64,000 nt of DNA, from positions 1 to 64,000 of the forward strand of contig NZ_LMUM01000011.1 in the NCBI RefSeq assembly GCF_009765985.1. Reading direction: 5' to 3'. The notes beneath the pieces are model-generated. The model was not told the origin of the DNA and did no database searches. It saw nothing but the letters and a program-made list of their open reading frames with translations. Positions 2,818 to 49,903 of this stretch are shown in pieces. A program made the position numbers and the translations under genes. Source of the DNA: Acidobacterium sp. S8 (GTDB lineage: Bacteria; Acidobacteriota; Terriglobia; Terriglobales; Acidobacteriaceae). Within the stretch, counting starts at the first letter, position 1; each line of letters opens with the position of its first letter.

Positions 2818-3453
2818 TTATTTTGAAGCGCTGCATTCTTTGCGCATCAATGCCCATTCTTCGCACTGCTTGCCGTTGGGAAATGTGCAGATACCGATCT
2901 GGCCACCGCCGTCTTTTGCGGTTTCAATTTTGAGCGTTCCGCCTTGTTTTGTGCAATTCACCGATGCCGGATTTTGCAGGCCAGCTGTTGGCGGCGTGCC
3001 GATGAGCTTGAGCGTAAAATTCTGCTTCGAATCGATGGGCTTCATCTCATGATCGAGCTGTTGCAACGTATCGTCATCAACGCGCAGATAATATTGTGTG
3101 CTTTCGGGTTTGTCGGGATCGAGCTGATAGACGGTTGCATCCGGATGGTCCGGCCTCCCGCGCAGAACCGTCCATATTCCGTAGCTGGTAAAGCTTCCGC
3201 GATCAATATATTTCAAGTGCTGCCGATAAATCGCGTGGGTAAAGTCATTTGCCGATTTTTGATAAAGCGTGAGCGTGGTGATAATGCCGCTACAGTCGGC
3301 ACATGGGGTCGTACCCTGCCATGTTCCGAACACATGCATGGACTTTGTCTCAGCAGCATAGCGCGACTGTTGTGGATCTTTCGTTTGAGCTGGCGCGACA
3401 GACACAAACGCAAATATCATGCATGTGAAGAAGCTTTTCAGCCTGAACGGCAT
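2818..3453 (-). CDS. Exported NlpE-like/DUF333 two-domain protein
   Basis: Starting from the ATG at 3453 (an upstream in-frame ATG at 3471 would spoil the signal peptide), the protein has about 211 residues. A signal peptide (MPFRLKSFFTCMIFAFVSVA) is followed by an NlpE N-terminal type domain: GTWQGTTPCADCSGI-ITTLTLY, including the CxxC motif of NlpE. The C-terminal part, NPASVNCTKQGGTL through FPNGKQCEEWALMRKEC, is a DUF333 (hemolysin-type small lipoprotein) domain with its conserved Cys residues. NlpE in E. coli is an outer-membrane sensor of copper and lipoprotein-sorting stress; here there is no obvious lipobox, so only a periplasmic envelope role can be proposed. The combination of the two domains is notable. 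Confidence 0.8.
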   Translation of the reverse strand: MPFRLKSFFTCMIFAFVSVAPAQTKDPQQSRYAAETKSMHVFGTWQGTTPCADCSGIITTLTLYQKSANDFTHAIYRQHLKYIDRGSFTSYGIWTVLRGRPDHPDATVYQLDPDKPESTQYYLRVDDDTLQQLDHEMKPIDSKQNFTLKLIGTPPTAGLQNPASVNCTKQGGTLKIETAKDGGGQIGICTFPNGKQCEEWALMRKECSASK

Positions 3454-43663: not shown

Positions 43664-44101
43664 ATGACAGGCATTACAGGGATAGCCAAAGCACATACGG
43701 AATATCTCTTCTTTCATACGAAAAAGCGCCGGGAGATTGTCCCTATCACGGCACAACTCGAAGAAATCGTTGGGCGCAGCGGTATTCGCGATGGCTTCTG
43801 TTTTGTCTCAGCCATGCACATTACGGCAGCTATCTACGTCAATGATCTGGAGAATGGCCTGATTGCGGACATCGAAGAGTGGCTGGAGAAGCTGGCGCCT
43901 GCACGACCTGATTATCGGCATCACCGGACAGGAGAAGATAACGCCGACGCTCACCTCAAGGCATTGCTGCTGCATCACGAGGTCACGCTGCCCGTTACCG
44001 AGGGTCGTCTCGATCTCGGCACGTGGCAGCAAATCTTTTATGCCGAGTTCGATGGTCAGCGCCGCAAGCGGGTTATCGTGAAACTGCTGGGGGTGGCGTA
44101 G
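43664..44101 (+). CDS. YjbQ/UPF0047-family protein (secondary thiamine-phosphate synthase type)
   Basis: The 145-residue product matches the UPF0047 fold: [20 protein letters not shown], then [19 protein letters not shown] and [20 protein letters not shown], ending [16 protein letters not shown]. Members have a conserved His/Asp/Glu cluster ([17 protein letters not shown]), and E. coli YjbQ has weak thiamine-phosphate synthase activity, though its true role is unresolved. It sits alone on the plus strand and overlaps the 3' end of motB by 29 bases. Confidence 0.9.
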
Positions 44102-44966
44102 CCGCTGCGCGTTCCGCCATGGCTGCGGCGGGAATCGCCGCGGTGACGGCTTCAGGACGGGCTGCCGGAAGATGGATAACCGGGCGCGGAGTGGTTGTGA
44201 CATGCGGTAGAACAATGATGTCAACCCGGCGGTTTTGCGCGCGGCCATCGGCTGTCGAGTTAGTCGTTGTTGGATGAAACTCAGCATAGCCGGAGGCGGA
44301 AAGCCGCCCGGGCGAGAAGCGATGCCCGATGATAAAAAGCTTTGCCATGTGCGTGGCCCGCGAAGTCGAAAGCTCCCAGTTGGAATCGAATTGCTCGGTG
44401 TGAATGGGAACGTTGTCTGTGTGTCCTTCAATCCTTATGTCGTAAGGCGTGGCGCGTAAAGCCTCGGCAATCTCACCTAAAGTCGCGATCGAACCCGGAT
44501 GCGGTGTATCAGAGCCGCTCTCGTAAAAGCCTGCTTCTCTCAGGGAGATGATGAGGCCATCACGGCCAATCCGCAGCGCGACCGTATGTCGGGCGATCTG
44601 ATTCGAAAGCAAGCCCTCCAGGTGTTTCTTGATCTTCTCGAAATCCTGCTGCACTTCCGGGGATGCGAGCATCTGGTCGCCAAGTACGACATTGAGCGGA
44701 GTTGCGACGGTATCCTCTGATGACGCCGGCGAGCCCGTATCATTCTGCGACGGCTTGCTTTCCTTTATCGTGCTTGGAGACTGAAACAATCCCAGCGCCT
44801 TGAATGCGGAATTGATTGAAGCAGCTGCCTGGGCCTGTTTTTTCTGGTCGGCCTTTGACGTGGCATACATCACAACGAAAAAAGCAAAGAGCAACGTAAT
44901 GAAGTCGGCATAGGATACGAGCCAGCGCTCATGGTTTGCATGTTGTTTCTCCTTGCGCCGTCTCAT
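44073..44966 (-). CDS. motB: Flagellar motor stator protein MotB
   Basis: The 297-residue protein begins [20 protein letters not shown], with the single membrane helix in [16 protein letters not shown] and the proton-binding Asp in YADFITLL. A plug-like segment and linker follow, and an OmpA-like peptidoglycan-binding domain (about residues 150-270) with [20 protein letters not shown] and [13 protein letters not shown]. It anchors the stator to peptidoglycan. The start overlaps motA by four bases. The C-terminal 30 residues are Ala-rich and extend beyond the usual OmpA domain. Confidence 0.96.
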
Positions 44967-45748
44967 GCCGTCTGTCCTTCAGCCTTCTTCGGTTGTTGCT
45001 GCTGCGATGCTTCGAGAAAGCTCTGCAGCTTGACTTCGATCATGCGGGGATTCATTCCTTCGAGGATGGAGACGACGCCTTCGAGCGTCATCTCTTTAAT
45101 GCGCTGCTCTTCGTTCAGACGGAAGCGCAGCTTGCCTGCAGAAGGAAGGAACAGGATGTTCGCCGTGCCAACCCCGTAGATAGTGGCGACAAAGGCTACC
45201 GCGATGCCGCGTCCTACTTCGTCGATATGATCAAGGTGCTGCATGACCTGGATCAGTCCGAGGACTGCGCCGATGATGCCGATCGTCGGAGCGAAGCCAC
45301 CGGCCGATTCGAAGACCGATGGAATTGCCTCTTCGCGCTGCGCATGGTTATCAATCTGCAGTTCCATGATCTTGCGCAGCTCAGCCGGTTCGGTGCCGTC
45401 TACGGCGAGCGTGAGCGCTTGTTTCAGAAAAGGATCGGATATGGTCGGCAGGTCCTGGTCGAGAGAAACGATACCGCTGCGACGCGCCTTATTGGCGAAG
45501 CTCAACAGCAGTTTGATGGTCGCGTCGCTGTCGATTTTCTTCGAAAAAAATACGCTCGCCAGCCGCTTGAATGCGGCTCCCACCGTTGCCAGTGGAAACT
45601 GCAGCATCACCGCTCCCAGCGTTCCGCCAAGAACGATCATCGCTGCCGTAGGCTGCAGAACCTGCCCTACATGCCCGCCTTCGATCAAAAGGCCGGCCAA
45701 AATTCCAGCCAGCGTAACAATCACTCCACCAAAGCTGCTTTTGTCCAT
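44963..45748 (-). CDS. motA: Flagellar motor stator protein MotA
   Basis: The 261-residue protein has the four membrane helices of MotA (VIVTLAGILAGLLIEGG and PTAAMIVLGGTLGAVML early; a second pair around GFAPTIGIIGAVLGLIQVMQ). The cytoplasmic domain between them carries SGIVSLDQDLPTISDPFLK. It forms the proton channel with MotB and drives the rotor. It belongs to flbD-motA-motB, 35 bases after flbD, read from the sigma-28 promoter at 46150. Confidence 0.96.
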   Translation of the reverse strand: MDKSSFGGVIVTLAGILAGLLIEGGHVGQVLQPTAAMIVLGGTLGAVMLQFPLATVGAAFKRLASVFFSKKIDSDATIKLLLSFANKARRSGIVSLDQDLPTISDPFLKQALTLAVDGTEPAELRKIMELQIDNHAQREEAIPSVFESAGGFAPTIGIIGAVLGLIQVMQHLDHIDEVGRGIAVAFVATIYGVGTANILFLPSAGKLRFRLNEEQRIKEMTLEGVVSILEGMNPRMIEVKLQSFLEASQQQQPKKAEGQTA

Positions 45749-45783: not shown

Positions 45784-46119
45784 TTACGACTCGCTCCTGC
45801 GCCTGCGCAGCTGCAGCGCTTCTGCGGATCCATCGGGCAATTCTGCCTGCTCGGCAACAAAGGCACGTAGAGCGGAGGCCCCGGAGGCGATGCTTCCGAG
45901 CTCGGTCAGACTGCTATCTGCGGCCTGTCTCATCACGTGCACAAGAAGAGCGGCGCGATACGAGGAGACCCGGCGCACCACCTCCTCGCATGGTTCCAGC
46001 ACAACAATCTTTTCTCCGTGAATCAGCGTCAGTGTCGTATCCGGGGACGATTCCACATATTTGATGAGGTCGGAATTAACGACCATCCTTTGTCCATTCA
46101 GCCGCGTAAGTTCAATCAT
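45784..46119 (-). CDS. flbD: FlbD-family flagellar protein
   Basis: The 111-residue product starts MIELTRLNGQRMVVNSDLIK and continues YVESSPDTTLTLIHGEKIVV, the signature of the FlbD family (Firmicutes/acidobacterial flagellar operons). The last 45 residues (Ala/Ser and an Arg-rich tail) are an extension of unclear use. The family is a small protein linked to flagellum assembly or motor genes; its mechanism is not firmly known. It is the first gene after the minus-strand sigma-28 promoter, with a short leader. Confidence 0.9.
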   Translation of the reverse strand: MIELTRLNGQRMVVNSDLIKYVESSPDTTLTLIHGEKIVVLEPCEEVVRRVSSYRAALLVHVMRQAADSSLTELGSIASGASALRAFVAEQAELPDGSAEALQLRRRRSES

Positions 46120-46149: not shown

Positions 46150-46176
46150 TTATCGGCAGAACACCGGAAACATTGA
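46150..46176 (-). promoter_or_regulatory. Sigma-28 (FliA) promoter of flbD-motA-motB
   Basis: On the minus strand TCAATGTT (forward 46169-46176), exactly 11 bases, then a perfect GCCGATAA (forward 46150-46157). The consensus is TAAAGTTT-N11-GCCGATAA. The start would lie about 22 bases before the flbD ATG. Confidence 0.8.
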
Positions 46177-46247
46177 CTTGGGCTGCACGGTCCCGGCGAA
46201 TGTACGCACGTTGCATGCCAAATCCCTCGATCAACCGGCTGCTTGCG

Positions 46248-46274
46248 TAAAGTGCATTTTCCCCGCGCCGATGA
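46248..46274 (+). promoter_or_regulatory. Sigma-28 (FliA) promoter of flagellin
   Basis: TAAAGTGC (46248-46255), 11 bases, then GCCGATGA (46267-46274), one base off the GCCGATAA consensus in the -10. The 5' leader of the fliC message would be about 110 bases with AGGAG before the ATG. Confidence 0.88.
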
Positions 46275-46394
46275 AGGCTGTGGGTAACGTGGTTCCTGTG
46301 GAAACGGTGACCCGGTTCTGAACATCGCGTTCTTCTAACCGATCAGGCACCCGAAACGGGCAACCCATTTCAATGCACAGAGGAGCACAACGAT

Positions 46395-47615
46395 ATGTCA
46401 CTGGGTGTCCTGAATAACATCTCCGCCATCTACGCGGAGAATAACCTGAACCAGACGCAGTCAAGCTTGCAGAATGTGTTGACGCAGCTTTCGTCCGGTT
46501 CGCGCATCAACTCCGGCGCAGATGATGCCGACGGTCTCTCGCTTGCGAACGGCTTGCAGGCAAACTCCACAGCGCTCGCGCAGTCTGCTACAAATGCCAG
46601 TGAAGGCGTAGGCCTGCTGCAGGTTGCTGACGGCGCGCTTTCCCAGGTGACCAGCCTGCTCAACCGTGCTGTGACACTGGCAACGGAATCGTCAAACGGC
46701 ACGTTGAACTCGGCGCAGCTGCAGGCTGCAAACCAGGAATATGACTCCATCCTGGCCGAAATTAACAGCATCGGCGCAACGACCACATACAACGGCCAAC
46801 AGGTCTTTGGCGGTGGCGGAGTGCAGATCTTCACCGGCGACTCCACAACGAACGGTTCTTCGACGGATACCCTGAACGTCGCTGCATTGTCGAGCAACTC
46901 GGTGGGAGATACCGGCGGTACCGTTCAATATACCGCCGCTGGCGGCAACGTGTATAAGAGTGCAGCGCAGGATCCGACAGGTACTTATACCGGCTCTCTT
47001 GTCTTCCAGGAAGGCGCGACGGGCACACCAGTAACGGTGAGCCTCGATACGGCTGGAGACACGATTTCTCAGATTGCCACGAAAATTAACCAGGCCAATA
47101 TCAGTGGAGTCTCGGCCAGCGTGGTCAGCGATGGCTCGAGCGATGGCAAATATTATCTTGAAGTCAAAGAAAACGGGGCCAATCTGCAGAGCTTCACCGC
47201 TGCCGGTGCCAACGATGCTGCGGTAGCTGCGGGTACTGCAACGGCGCTGGCATTCGCTGCCCCAACTGCGGGGACCAGCGGTATCACCTATACAGCCGGC
47301 ACCTCGGTGAACCTGTCAACCACCAATCTGACAACCGGTGCTCAGGCGGCCTTGACCAGCATCAACAGTGCGACCTCGGCCGTGGCTGCACAGCGCGGTT
47401 ACATCGGTTCGCAGATCAACACGCTGAATGCAATCTCCAATGTGGAAACCACCCAGCAGGAGAACGTAACCTCAGCACAAAACGCCGTTCAGGCAACGGA
47501 CTACGCTTCGGCAACCTCGGATATGTCTAAGTACGAGATCCTGAGCCAGACCGGCATCAGCGCGCTCGCACAGGCGAATAGCACGGAGCAGTTGGTAACC
47601 AAGCTGCTTCAGTAG
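46395..47615 (+). CDS. fliC: Flagellin
   Basis: The 406-residue protein has the conserved D0/D1 N-terminal helices (NISAIYAENNLNQTQSSLQ, LTQLSSGSRINSGADDADGL) and the matching C-terminal helix (SQTGISALAQANSTEQLVTK). The middle is a variable Ser/Thr/Gly-rich outer domain (about residues 145-300, e.g. FTAAGANDAAVAAGTATAL). It is the filament subunit, exported by the flagellar type III system. RBS AGGAG lies eight bases before the ATG. It is transcribed alone from its sigma-28 promoter and ends in a strong terminator. Confidence 0.97.
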   Translation: MSLGVLNNISAIYAENNLNQTQSSLQNVLTQLSSGSRINSGADDADGLSLANGLQANSTALAQSATNASEGVGLLQVADGALSQVTSLLNRAVTLATESSNGTLNSAQLQAANQEYDSILAEINSIGATTTYNGQQVFGGGGVQIFTGDSTTNGSSTDTLNVAALSSNSVGDTGGTVQYTAAGGNVYKSAAQDPTGTYTGSLVFQEGATGTPVTVSLDTAGDTISQIATKINQANISGVSASVVSDGSSDGKYYLEVKENGANLQSFTAAGANDAAVAAGTATALAFAAPTAGTSGITYTAGTSVNLSTTNLTTGAQAALTSINSATSAVAAQRGYIGSQINTLNAISNVETTQQENVTSAQNAVQATDYASATSDMSKYEILSQTGISALAQANSTEQLVTKLLQ

Positions 47616-47633
47616 TACCGAAAAGCGAATTAG

Positions 47634-47670
47634 AAAACAACAGGGAGCCTCTCAGGCTCCCTGTTGTTTT
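47634..47670. terminator. Terminator after flagellin (long perfect hairpin)
   Basis: AAAACAACAGGGAGCCT-CTC-AGGCTCCCTGTTGTTTT is a 17-base perfect stem, so it acts in both directions. It lies 18 bases past the fliC stop. Confidence 0.93.
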
Positions 47671-47745
47671 CTGAGAGCAGATTAATGCGTCAGCCGGCAA
47701 AGGGCCTGTCGATTGCACGCTGATGATGACATTGCTCTAGTAAGT

Positions 47746-47772
47746 TCAAGTTTAGCCAGGAAGGGACGATAA
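47746..47772 (+). promoter_or_regulatory. Sigma-28 (FliA) promoter directly at the fliD start
   Basis: TCAAGTTT (47746-47753), 11 bases, then GACGATAA (47765-47772), one base off in each half. The -10 box ends seven bases before the ATG at 47780, so transcription would begin at or near the start codon. Confidence 0.75.
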
Positions 47773-47779
47773 CGGCATT

Positions 47780-49453
47780 ATGGGAACGGTAGGACTTTCA
47801 TTTGGATCGCCGACAGGTGGCGCAGGCTTCGATGTGACTTCGACGGTCAATCAGATCGTATCGAACATGCAAGCCATAGAAACTCCATGGAAGAGTCAGC
47901 TCACCACACTGCAATCGCAGGATTCGGCACTGACCGGTATCGGCACAGACCTCAGTTCGCTTTCGACAGCGATGCAATCGCTGACCAATTTCGAAGGTGT
48001 TTTGGCGGAAAAGCAAGGTTCAAGTTCCGATACCAGCCTCCTGCAGCTGACCTCCGCATCTACATCGGCGATTGCCGGAACTCATACCGTGGTGGTGCAG
48101 TCACTGGCGACAACGTCCTCTTATGTAAGCGGCACGATTGCCAATGCGGGCGATACACTTAGTGGCAACCTGGAGATCAATGGAAAGACCATTACCATCG
48201 ACTCCTCGAACAACACGTTTTCTTCCTTGGCCAGCACGATCAATTCCGGCAGCTATGGCCTGACGGCAAACGTTATCACCGATTCGTCCGGTACGCGGCT
48301 CTCTCTGGTGAGCCAAACCAGCGGCGCAAGCGGAGCCATCTCCGTCACCAGCAATCTGAGCGACACCAGCACATCATCCTCGGTTAATTTTTCGCAGACG
48401 CAACCAGGTGCGGACGCACAACTGACAGTCGATGGCGTCTTGGTCGCGAGCTCCTCCAATACGGTGACGAATGCGATTCAGGGGGTGACTTTTCAGCTGC
48501 TCAGCGCAAATAAGGATGAAAGCATTCAGGTGGAAATCACAAACGACAACACCGACGTAGAAACCGCGCTGAATACTTTTGTCACCGACTACAACAAAGT
48601 CCTGCAGGACCTGAACACGCAGGAAGGGAGCGATTCGAATGGTAATCCGGAGCCATTGTTCGGAAACCCGACGATCGCGCTGTTGCAGCAATCTCTCCAG
48701 TCGGCTTTGACGTTTGTGCAGCCCTCCAACACAGTAGCTTCCAGTTCCTCAGTCGGCTCATCGGATGCATTGTCTGGCAAGATACTCATCGGTGTGGGAG
48801 GCGGCTCGCAGGAGGAGATTGACATTCCTGATAACTCGAGCATGGCTGATGTGGCCGCCGCCATCAACAGCGCCAATATCGGCGTGACCGCTGCAATTAT
48901 CACATCGGGTAATAACGCAATTTTGAGCCTGACAAATGCAACGAGCGGTTCTTCCGGCGCGATCAGCGTGGACGCGAGTGGTTTGACGGATACTTCTACC
49001 GGCAACGCTGTCACGTTTGGGTCGGCGCAGTCGAATACCGTCACATCCATCACGCAACTTGGAGTATCGGTGAACAATGACGGCACGCTTACGCTTGACA
49101 CCGATGCGCTGGACAGTCTGCTGAACAGCAATTATCAGGGTGTGGTCAATTTTCTCCAGCCCAGCGGAAACTACACATCGTTTGGCGGAAACTTTACCAA
49201 TATTCTGGACAATCTTGGCAGCAGCGCTCCCAGCGGGGCCATTTATCTTGCCCTCCAGGAAGATTCCCAGGTAGAGACGCAGCTCAACACAAATATCAGC
49301 AATGAAGAAACCATTATCACCGCGCAGAAAGCGCAGTTGACGACTGAGCTTACCCAGGCCAATTACACACTGACTGAGATTCCTCAGCAGCTGGAGCAGA
49401 TCAACGAGATGTACAGTGCCATTACCGGCTACAACGAAGGTCAAAACGGCTAG
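47780..49453 (+). CDS. fliD: Flagellar filament cap protein FliD (HAP2)
   Basis: The 557-residue protein starts with the FliD coiled-coil N-terminus (GFDVTSTVNQIVSNMQAIE, then LSSLSTAMQSLTNFEGVLAE) and ends with a matching C-terminal coil (ETIITAQKAQLTTELTQANY, then QQLEQINEMYSAI). The middle holds two FliD-type repeats (GNLEINGKTITIDSSNNTFS and GKILIGVGGGSQEEIDIPDN). It caps the filament and guides flagellin insertion. fliS follows after three bases. The ribosome binding site is not separate from the promoter, see the leaderless promoter. Confidence 0.95.
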   Translation: MGTVGLSFGSPTGGAGFDVTSTVNQIVSNMQAIETPWKSQLTTLQSQDSALTGIGTDLSSLSTAMQSLTNFEGVLAEKQGSSSDTSLLQLTSASTSAIAGTHTVVVQSLATTSSYVSGTIANAGDTLSGNLEINGKTITIDSSNNTFSSLASTINSGSYGLTANVITDSSGTRLSLVSQTSGASGAISVTSNLSDTSTSSSVNFSQTQPGADAQLTVDGVLVASSSNTVTNAIQGVTFQLLSANKDESIQVEITNDNTDVETALNTFVTDYNKVLQDLNTQEGSDSNGNPEPLFGNPTIALLQQSLQSALTFVQPSNTVASSSSVGSSDALSGKILIGVGGGSQEEIDIPDNSSMADVAAAINSANIGVTAAIITSGNNAILSLTNATSGSSGAISVDASGLTDTSTGNAVTFGSAQSNTVTSITQLGVSVNNDGTLTLDTDALDSLLNSNYQGVVNFLQPSGNYTSFGGNFTNILDNLGSSAPSGAIYLALQEDSQVETQLNTNISNEETIITAQKAQLTTELTQANYTLTEIPQQLEQINEMYSAITGYNEGQNG

Positions 49454-49456
49454 CGC

Positions 49457-49903
49457 ATGCAGAATAAAAATTACCAGCAGCAATCGATAGCCGGGAAAAA
49501 CAGCGTGGAACTAATCGTGGCTCTTTACGATGGCATGGTACGTTTTCTGAACCGCGCCATCGAAGCTACAGAGGCTGGCGATGTGCATGAGCGTCGTATT
49601 GCCGTGAAGCGCGTGCTCGATATTCTGATGCACCTGCAGTCGCGGCTGCGAATGGATGTGGGGGGCCCGGCGAAGACTCTGGCGGAGTTCTATGCCGCAG
49701 TATTCGCCTTGTGCCTGGAGGGATCGCGGCTTGCTTCAGCCGACCGGTTCCGCGAGGCTATCCGATGCATCTTGAACGTACGTGAAGCATGGCAACAGGT
49801 GGCGCGGGAGTCTGAACTGACGGTGCAGCCAGTGCTTCCCCCGGCTCCAAAGCAGGCTGCGCGTGGGATTGTAGCAACGGAATCGTCCACCTGGACGGCT
49901 TAG
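49457..49903 (+). CDS. fliS: Flagellin export chaperone FliS
   Basis: The 148-residue product is the four-helix FliS chaperone: VELIVALYDGMVRFLNRAIE, ERRIAVKRVLDILMHLQSRL and DVGGPAKTLAEFYAAVFALC in order. It binds flagellin in the cytoplasm to stop premature assembly. It is cotranscribed with fliD. Its last four bases overlap the stop of the convergent ABC gene. Confidence 0.94.
   Translation: MQNKNYQQQSIAGKNSVELIVALYDGMVRFLNRAIEATEAGDVHERRIAVKRVLDILMHLQSRLRMDVGGPAKTLAEFYAAVFALCLEGSRLASADRFREAIRCILNVREAWQQVARESELTVQPVLPPAPKQAARGIVATESSTWTA

Follow-up and report, generated by a model that had tools for sequence, protein, structure and literature searches.

Late flagellar genes and sigma-28-type promoters in the window

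The window (the whole 64-kb stretch of DNA that was analysed) contains two divergent groups of late flagellar genes. The minus strand carries flbD (45784..46119; Pfam PF06289, 87.9 bits), motA (44963..45748; PF01618 and PF20560, with NCBIfam NF006583 above its cut-off) and motB (44073..44966; PF13677 and PF00691). On the plus strand lie fliC, which encodes a flagellin of 406 aa (46395..47615; PF00669 and PF00700), fliD, which encodes the 557-aa filament cap protein (47780..49453; PF02465 and PF07195), and the flagellin chaperone gene fliS (49457..49903; PF02561, with NCBIfam TIGR00208 under its cut-off). The first-pass annotation had placed the expected late genes behind three promoter motifs, and the Pfam matches bear this out by naming the products FlbD, MotA, MotB, flagellin, FliD and FliS.

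The three motifs, for which spacers of 11 bases had been claimed, were found letter for letter. They were scored at 16 positions against the sigma-28 consensus, TAAAGTTT-N11-GCCGATAA, with an 11-base spacer and a threshold of at least 13 of 16 matches. The putative promoter of flbD-motA-motB is located on the minus strand at 46150..46176 (TCAATGTT-N11-GCCGATAA), and its -10 box ends 30 nt upstream of the flbD start. On the plus strand, the candidate fliC promoter at 46248..46274 (TAAAGTGC-N11-GCCGATGA) has a -10 box that ends 120 nt upstream of the start, and that of fliD at 47746..47772 (TCAAGTTT-N11-GACGATAA) comes within 7 nt of the ATG. The sites match at 13, 13 and 14 of the 16 positions; with a 10-base spacer the flbD site scores 14, as compared to 13 with 11 bases. 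Assuming that transcription starts 7 nt past each -10 box, the two divergent start sites would be separated by 138 bases, close to the 140 or so predicted earlier.

Exactly these three sites reach 13 of 16 matches in the window, against a chance mean of 0.215 and a maximum of 2 in 200 first-order Markov sequences. A looser sigma-28-like match (12 of 16) at 3203-3229, within an ORF ahead of carA, is probably due to chance.

The genome to which the window belongs (G000) is a draft of 5.44 Mb in 38 contigs with an estimated completeness of 99.99%. A scan of this genome for the motif, which had been proposed as a check, shows no enrichment: 46 sites have at least 13 of 16 matches, compared to 48 in a reversed control. 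The corresponding numbers for the genus mate G001 are 37 and 54, and the motif on its own was not accepted as defining a regulon. Of the additional sites, C14:34407 and C17:69847 were inspected; each falls within an ORF that runs in the opposite direction and was considered a chance match. As the motif is not enriched genome-wide, the case for promoters is carried by position and conservation, and not by the motif alone. By descent, the three sites are very probably promoters of the sigma-28 type, as indicated by their position, the chance control for the window and their recurrence across the family.

The class 3 promoters of Escherichia coli and Salmonella, whose FliA targets include fliC, fliD, motAB and flgM, share the consensus, the 11-base spacer and these targets with the present system. 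They differ from it in three respects: here FliA is missing, flbD-motAB and fliC form a divergent pair, and the fliD promoter abuts the start codon.

An intrinsic terminator is found between fliC and fliD on the plus strand at 47636..47668. It consists of a 15-bp stem followed by a T run, has a folding energy of -26.1 kcal/mol, and was found again in a second scan. No clear pairing of such a terminator with a separate fliD promoter emerged from the loci compared: hairpins occur both where the promoter is present and where it is absent, and in several loci the gene ahead of fliD is not reliably identified.

Recurrence of the sites in relatives

The named relatives identified by FliD belong to the Acidobacteriaceae/Acidobacteriales and include Paracidobacterium, Silvibacterium and Edaphobacter (8 loci, some of them unnamed); on this basis the window is assigned to the Acidobacteriaceae. 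The arrangement of motB-motA-flbD facing fliC-fliD-fliS, with all six genes, is present in 24 of 27 loci (L065-L091); within this set, L084 and L086 apparently duplicate L066 and L079.

The sites of the relatives were sought with spacers of 10, 11 or 12 bases, and the best-site counts are raw counts. Ahead of fliC, 24 of the 25 loci have a best site whose -10 box lies 68-153 nt upstream; these sites match at 10 to 15 positions out of 16. A site is found within 19-41 nt of flbD in 21 of 23 loci, in two of them only as the second-best site. For fliD, a site scoring at least 11 is located within 20 nt of the start in 15 of the 40 distinct loci listed, which are those with a -10 box of at least 6/8. 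In random 160-nt stretches searched with an 11-base spacer, a score of 11 was reached in 6 of 300 cases and a score of 10 in 45 of 300. Thus, the weakest single sites in the relatives could be chance matches, but the pattern as a whole is not.

The fliD start and a possible leaderless mRNA

Among the 15 loci that have a site close to fliD, 12 place the end of the -10 box exactly 7 nt from the ATG; in the others the distance is 8, 9 and 19 nt. The seven letters themselves vary among the loci. In the window, the Shine-Dalgarno-like sequence nearest to the fliD start, GGAAGG, ends about 15 nt ahead of the ATG, inside the promoter. The window fliC is different in this respect, having GAGGAG at a normal distance from its start.

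Transcription from sigma-28 promoters starts a few bases past the -10 box. With the box 7 nt from the ATG, transcription of fliD would therefore begin at or beside the start codon. This suggests that the predicted fliD mRNA may be leaderless, transcribed from the start codon itself. Leaderless genes have been predicted in all three of three acidobacterial genomes, at 13.3% on average (PMC3160421). The word stem 'flagell' is absent from the available text of that paper, and the start-abutting box described here is of the sigma-28 type. No leaderless fliD appears among the matches listed in a search of titles and abstract openings of the open-licence literature. The position of the fliD box against the start codon offers a way to test, in this family, whether a flagellar gene is translated without a leader.

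Absence of FliA and FlhA from the assembled genome

The first-pass annotation had described a coherent late regulon and had taken the absence of FliA from the genome as an observation that would speak against it. As far as the assembly shows, FliA is absent. The FliA/WhiG model TIGR02479 gives 9 matches at E<=0.001 in G000 with all 28 candidates scored, none of them above the cut-off; the best of these, with 112 bits (cut-off 189.6), is RpoD. The genus mates G001 and G003 contain FliA at 255 and 253 bits, and as a positive control every one of the 14 genomes in this search that have a full FlhA also has FliA above the cut-off. FlhA, which is present in G001 and G003, was likewise not found in G000. 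A third genome, G002, is 59% complete and has no FlhA match. The sole match of the Flg_bb_rod model in G000 is a gene named FlgK by NCBIfam, but this model also failed to detect flgB, which G000 does have, and is hence a weak indicator on its own.

The anti-sigma factor FlgM is present in G000 (TIGR03824 above the cut-off, PF04316). Its intact gene, L031:9020-9298 on contig C3, has directly ahead of it a fourth sigma-28 site with 15 of 16 matches (C3:148971-148997), on a different contig from the window and in a genome that does not have FliA. Taken against what a working FliA-FlgM regulon comprises, G000 has FlgM, shows no FliA over the cut-off and no FlhA, and has a 20.8-kb deletion that would include other export and hook-basal body genes. 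Thus, the part of the earlier claim that identifies the sites as late-gene sigma-28 promoters is supported by where they lie, by the low chance expectation for the window and by the recurrence in the family. The part that implies present-day control falls away, with no FliA over the cut-off and flhA deleted.

The two deletions that interrupt the main cluster

Contig C3 of G000 is colinear with the flagellar cluster of G001 and its flanks apart from two gaps. In the first, about codon 18 of flgC is joined to codon 361 of fliF, and about 1.8 kb is gone. The second truncates fliG after codon 305 (of 360 in total) and fuses it to a flgJ-like gene, with the loss of about 20.8 kb. The two junctions are at C3:147265-147272 and C3:148728/148729. 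The G001 equivalent of the larger deletion holds fliA (C1:2399528-2400190) and flhA, and, by our reading of the sequences, fliHI, flgDE, fliQR, flhB, fliMN and flgFGAHI would have been removed with them. Both deletions are read from one draft assembly (38 contigs) of one strain; each junction lies inside the single contig C3, with colinear flanks on each side.

The remnants in G000 are flgB, a fragment of fliF, the truncated fliG, flgM, flgK and flgL. The fliF fragment scores under its family cut-off, and FlgL slightly under its own. A gene for a sigma-54-type activator is still present.

Survey of 150 genomes of the family

FlhA is found in 68 of 150 genomes, FliD_N in 73 (72 above the cut-off) and FliA in 89 (88 above the cut-off), with 18 candidates scored in many genomes in the family-wide FliA search. 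FliA accompanies FlhA in 65 of the 68 genomes, and the exceptions are G074, which has a fragment of FlhA, and the incomplete G109 and G146.

A FliD match without FliA occurs in 11 genomes, G000 included, at a FliA threshold of E<=1e-40; in 10 of them FliD is above its cut-off. G032, in which FliD is below the cut-off, and the fragmented or incomplete G054, G066, G081, G088, G101, G106 and G109 were set aside, and the reading rests on G000, G074 (five contigs) and G097 (one contig). Both G097 and G074 retain fliC and fliD without FliA. G097 does not contain FlhA either, keeps FlgK, and in the stretch from the activator gene to flgK-flgL shows no match to the named proteins of the G001 cluster. 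In G074, flhA runs at about codon 134 into a fliN-like gene; the genome contains no fliA, and that stretch gave no fliM match. The flagellar genes of G074 sit in two places (L121 and L122). The breakpoints of the three genomes differ, and the losses in G000, G097 and G074 are taken as separate events.

In this family, FliA is not strictly coupled to flagella, because a FliA-family sigma factor is present without FlhA in 24 of 150 genomes (one below the cut-off). G014, which has FliA and FliD without FlhA, runs counter to a simple rule. A FliA-family sigma factor gene of this genome (C3:47186-47839) is located near trx and lexA.

Age of the loss and selection on the late genes

All nine late genes of G000 have open frames. 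Relaxed selection on them, which was looked for in the rate of protein change, was not seen. The ratio of branch dN in G000 to that in the mates G001 and G003 is 1.36 (95% interval 1.18-1.53) for the nine late genes, no higher than the 1.50 (1.20-1.85) of the only three controls, which include a CheY-like gene next to the cluster, with synonymous sites near saturation. Single-gene ratios range from 0.66 (FliD) to 3.00 (FliS), with alignment columns of FliC and FliD under 50% local identity left out of the count.

The start-less fragment of fliF retains 178 open codons. In simulations of neutral substitution, this frame stayed open in 19% of the runs at 0.1 substitutions per site and in 3% at 0.2 per site. 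The dS between G000 and G001 at the fragment is about 2.3. As this dead fragment is still open, the loss of the flagellum in G000 looks recent on the scale of the divergence between G000 and G001.

Origin and present state of the regulon

By combining these observations, it is possible to outline how the locus might have reached its present state. In all likelihood, the sites are ancestral late promoters that were orphaned when fliA and most of the flagellum were lost. The divergent pair of ancestral sigma-28 promoters would have served flbD-motA-motB and fliC, and another would have served fliD-fliS, set apart from fliC by the terminator. The release of FliA from FlgM upon completion of the hook is established flagellar biology, and in the flagellated relatives the freed FliA would then read the late promoters. 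In G000, the two deletions in the main cluster would have taken fliA, the export gate, the rod, the hook and most of the switch, while the unlinked late cluster and the flgM-flgK-flgL remnant would have survived them. No flagellum would be possible, and the orphan regulon is probably silent or weakly read by other sigma factors.

The sites might also be read by a different sigma factor, which counts against this explanation. In one alternative, selection retains the late cluster for a new, non-flagellar role, with a different sigma factor reading it. Such a role would fit the lack of excess protein change in G000, as well as the 10 of 72 FliD-positive genomes (G000, G097 and G074 among them) without FliA at E<=1e-40. 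The export of FliC and FliD is known to need the export gate, however, and without it both proteins should remain in the cytoplasm. Moreover, the open but dead fliF fragment indicates a recent loss, which explains the intactness of the genes without selection, and 72 of the 82 family genomes that do not have FlhA have no FliD match either. We consider the new role unlikely. Its fuller form, in which several non-flagellated Acidobacteriaceae keep the FliC, FliD, FliS, MotAB and FlbD cluster and express it via another sigma factor, with FlgM, where kept, binding a new partner, appears very doubtful.

A flagellated genome with a working FliA-controlled regulon, its missing genes being an assembly error or gap, would be in keeping with the intact late genes and promoters, with the FliA and FlhA of G001 and G003, and with a 38-contig assembly in which a misassembly or an unassembled second cluster is conceivable, but it is very improbable given that the flgC-fliF and fliG-flgJ-like junctions both lie within contig C3 between colinear flanks, that no FlhA and no FliA above the cut-off occur elsewhere at 99.99% estimated completeness, and that the single-contig G097 is without FlhA and FliA yet keeps FliD and FlgK.

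Comparison with other flagellar remnants

If the late promoters of G000 were indeed orphaned by the loss of fliA, this genome would represent a flagellar regulon apparently caught just after the loss of its sigma factor, with promoters, anti-sigma factor and structural genes intact and no protein to read them. It also serves as a warning: the presence of late genes and their promoter motifs in a single window does not prove that the organism swims. Among the matches listed (titles and abstract openings of the open-licence literature), none describes the loss of FliA with retention of late genes in Acidobacteria.

A close parallel is Legionella oakridgensis, which is non-flagellated and has likewise retained part of the late regulatory circuit, as described in the available text of PMC5655016. 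It is the reverse remnant: there fliA and flgM are kept and the flagellar genes are gone, whereas G000 keeps flgM and late genes and has no fliA. A filament protein without a rotor protein is reported in fewer than 0.3% of species (34 of 11365; PMC12199754, main text), and in those remnants, as here, filament genes outlast the rest. G000 differs from them in keeping a truncated FliG, and the stem 'acidobacteri' is absent from that main text. Some Acidobacteriota, for example Koromonas and Oryzophilus, seem to be non-motile despite their flagellar genes; in the available text of PMC13362970, Koromonas is described as still flagellated and the loss of FliA is not mentioned, unlike the situation in G000. 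Motility also varies within Edaphobacter, according to the available text of PMC11354219. The genus mates that keep FliA and FlhA, together with the other losses in the family, form a natural series from which the rate and order of regulon decay might be read.
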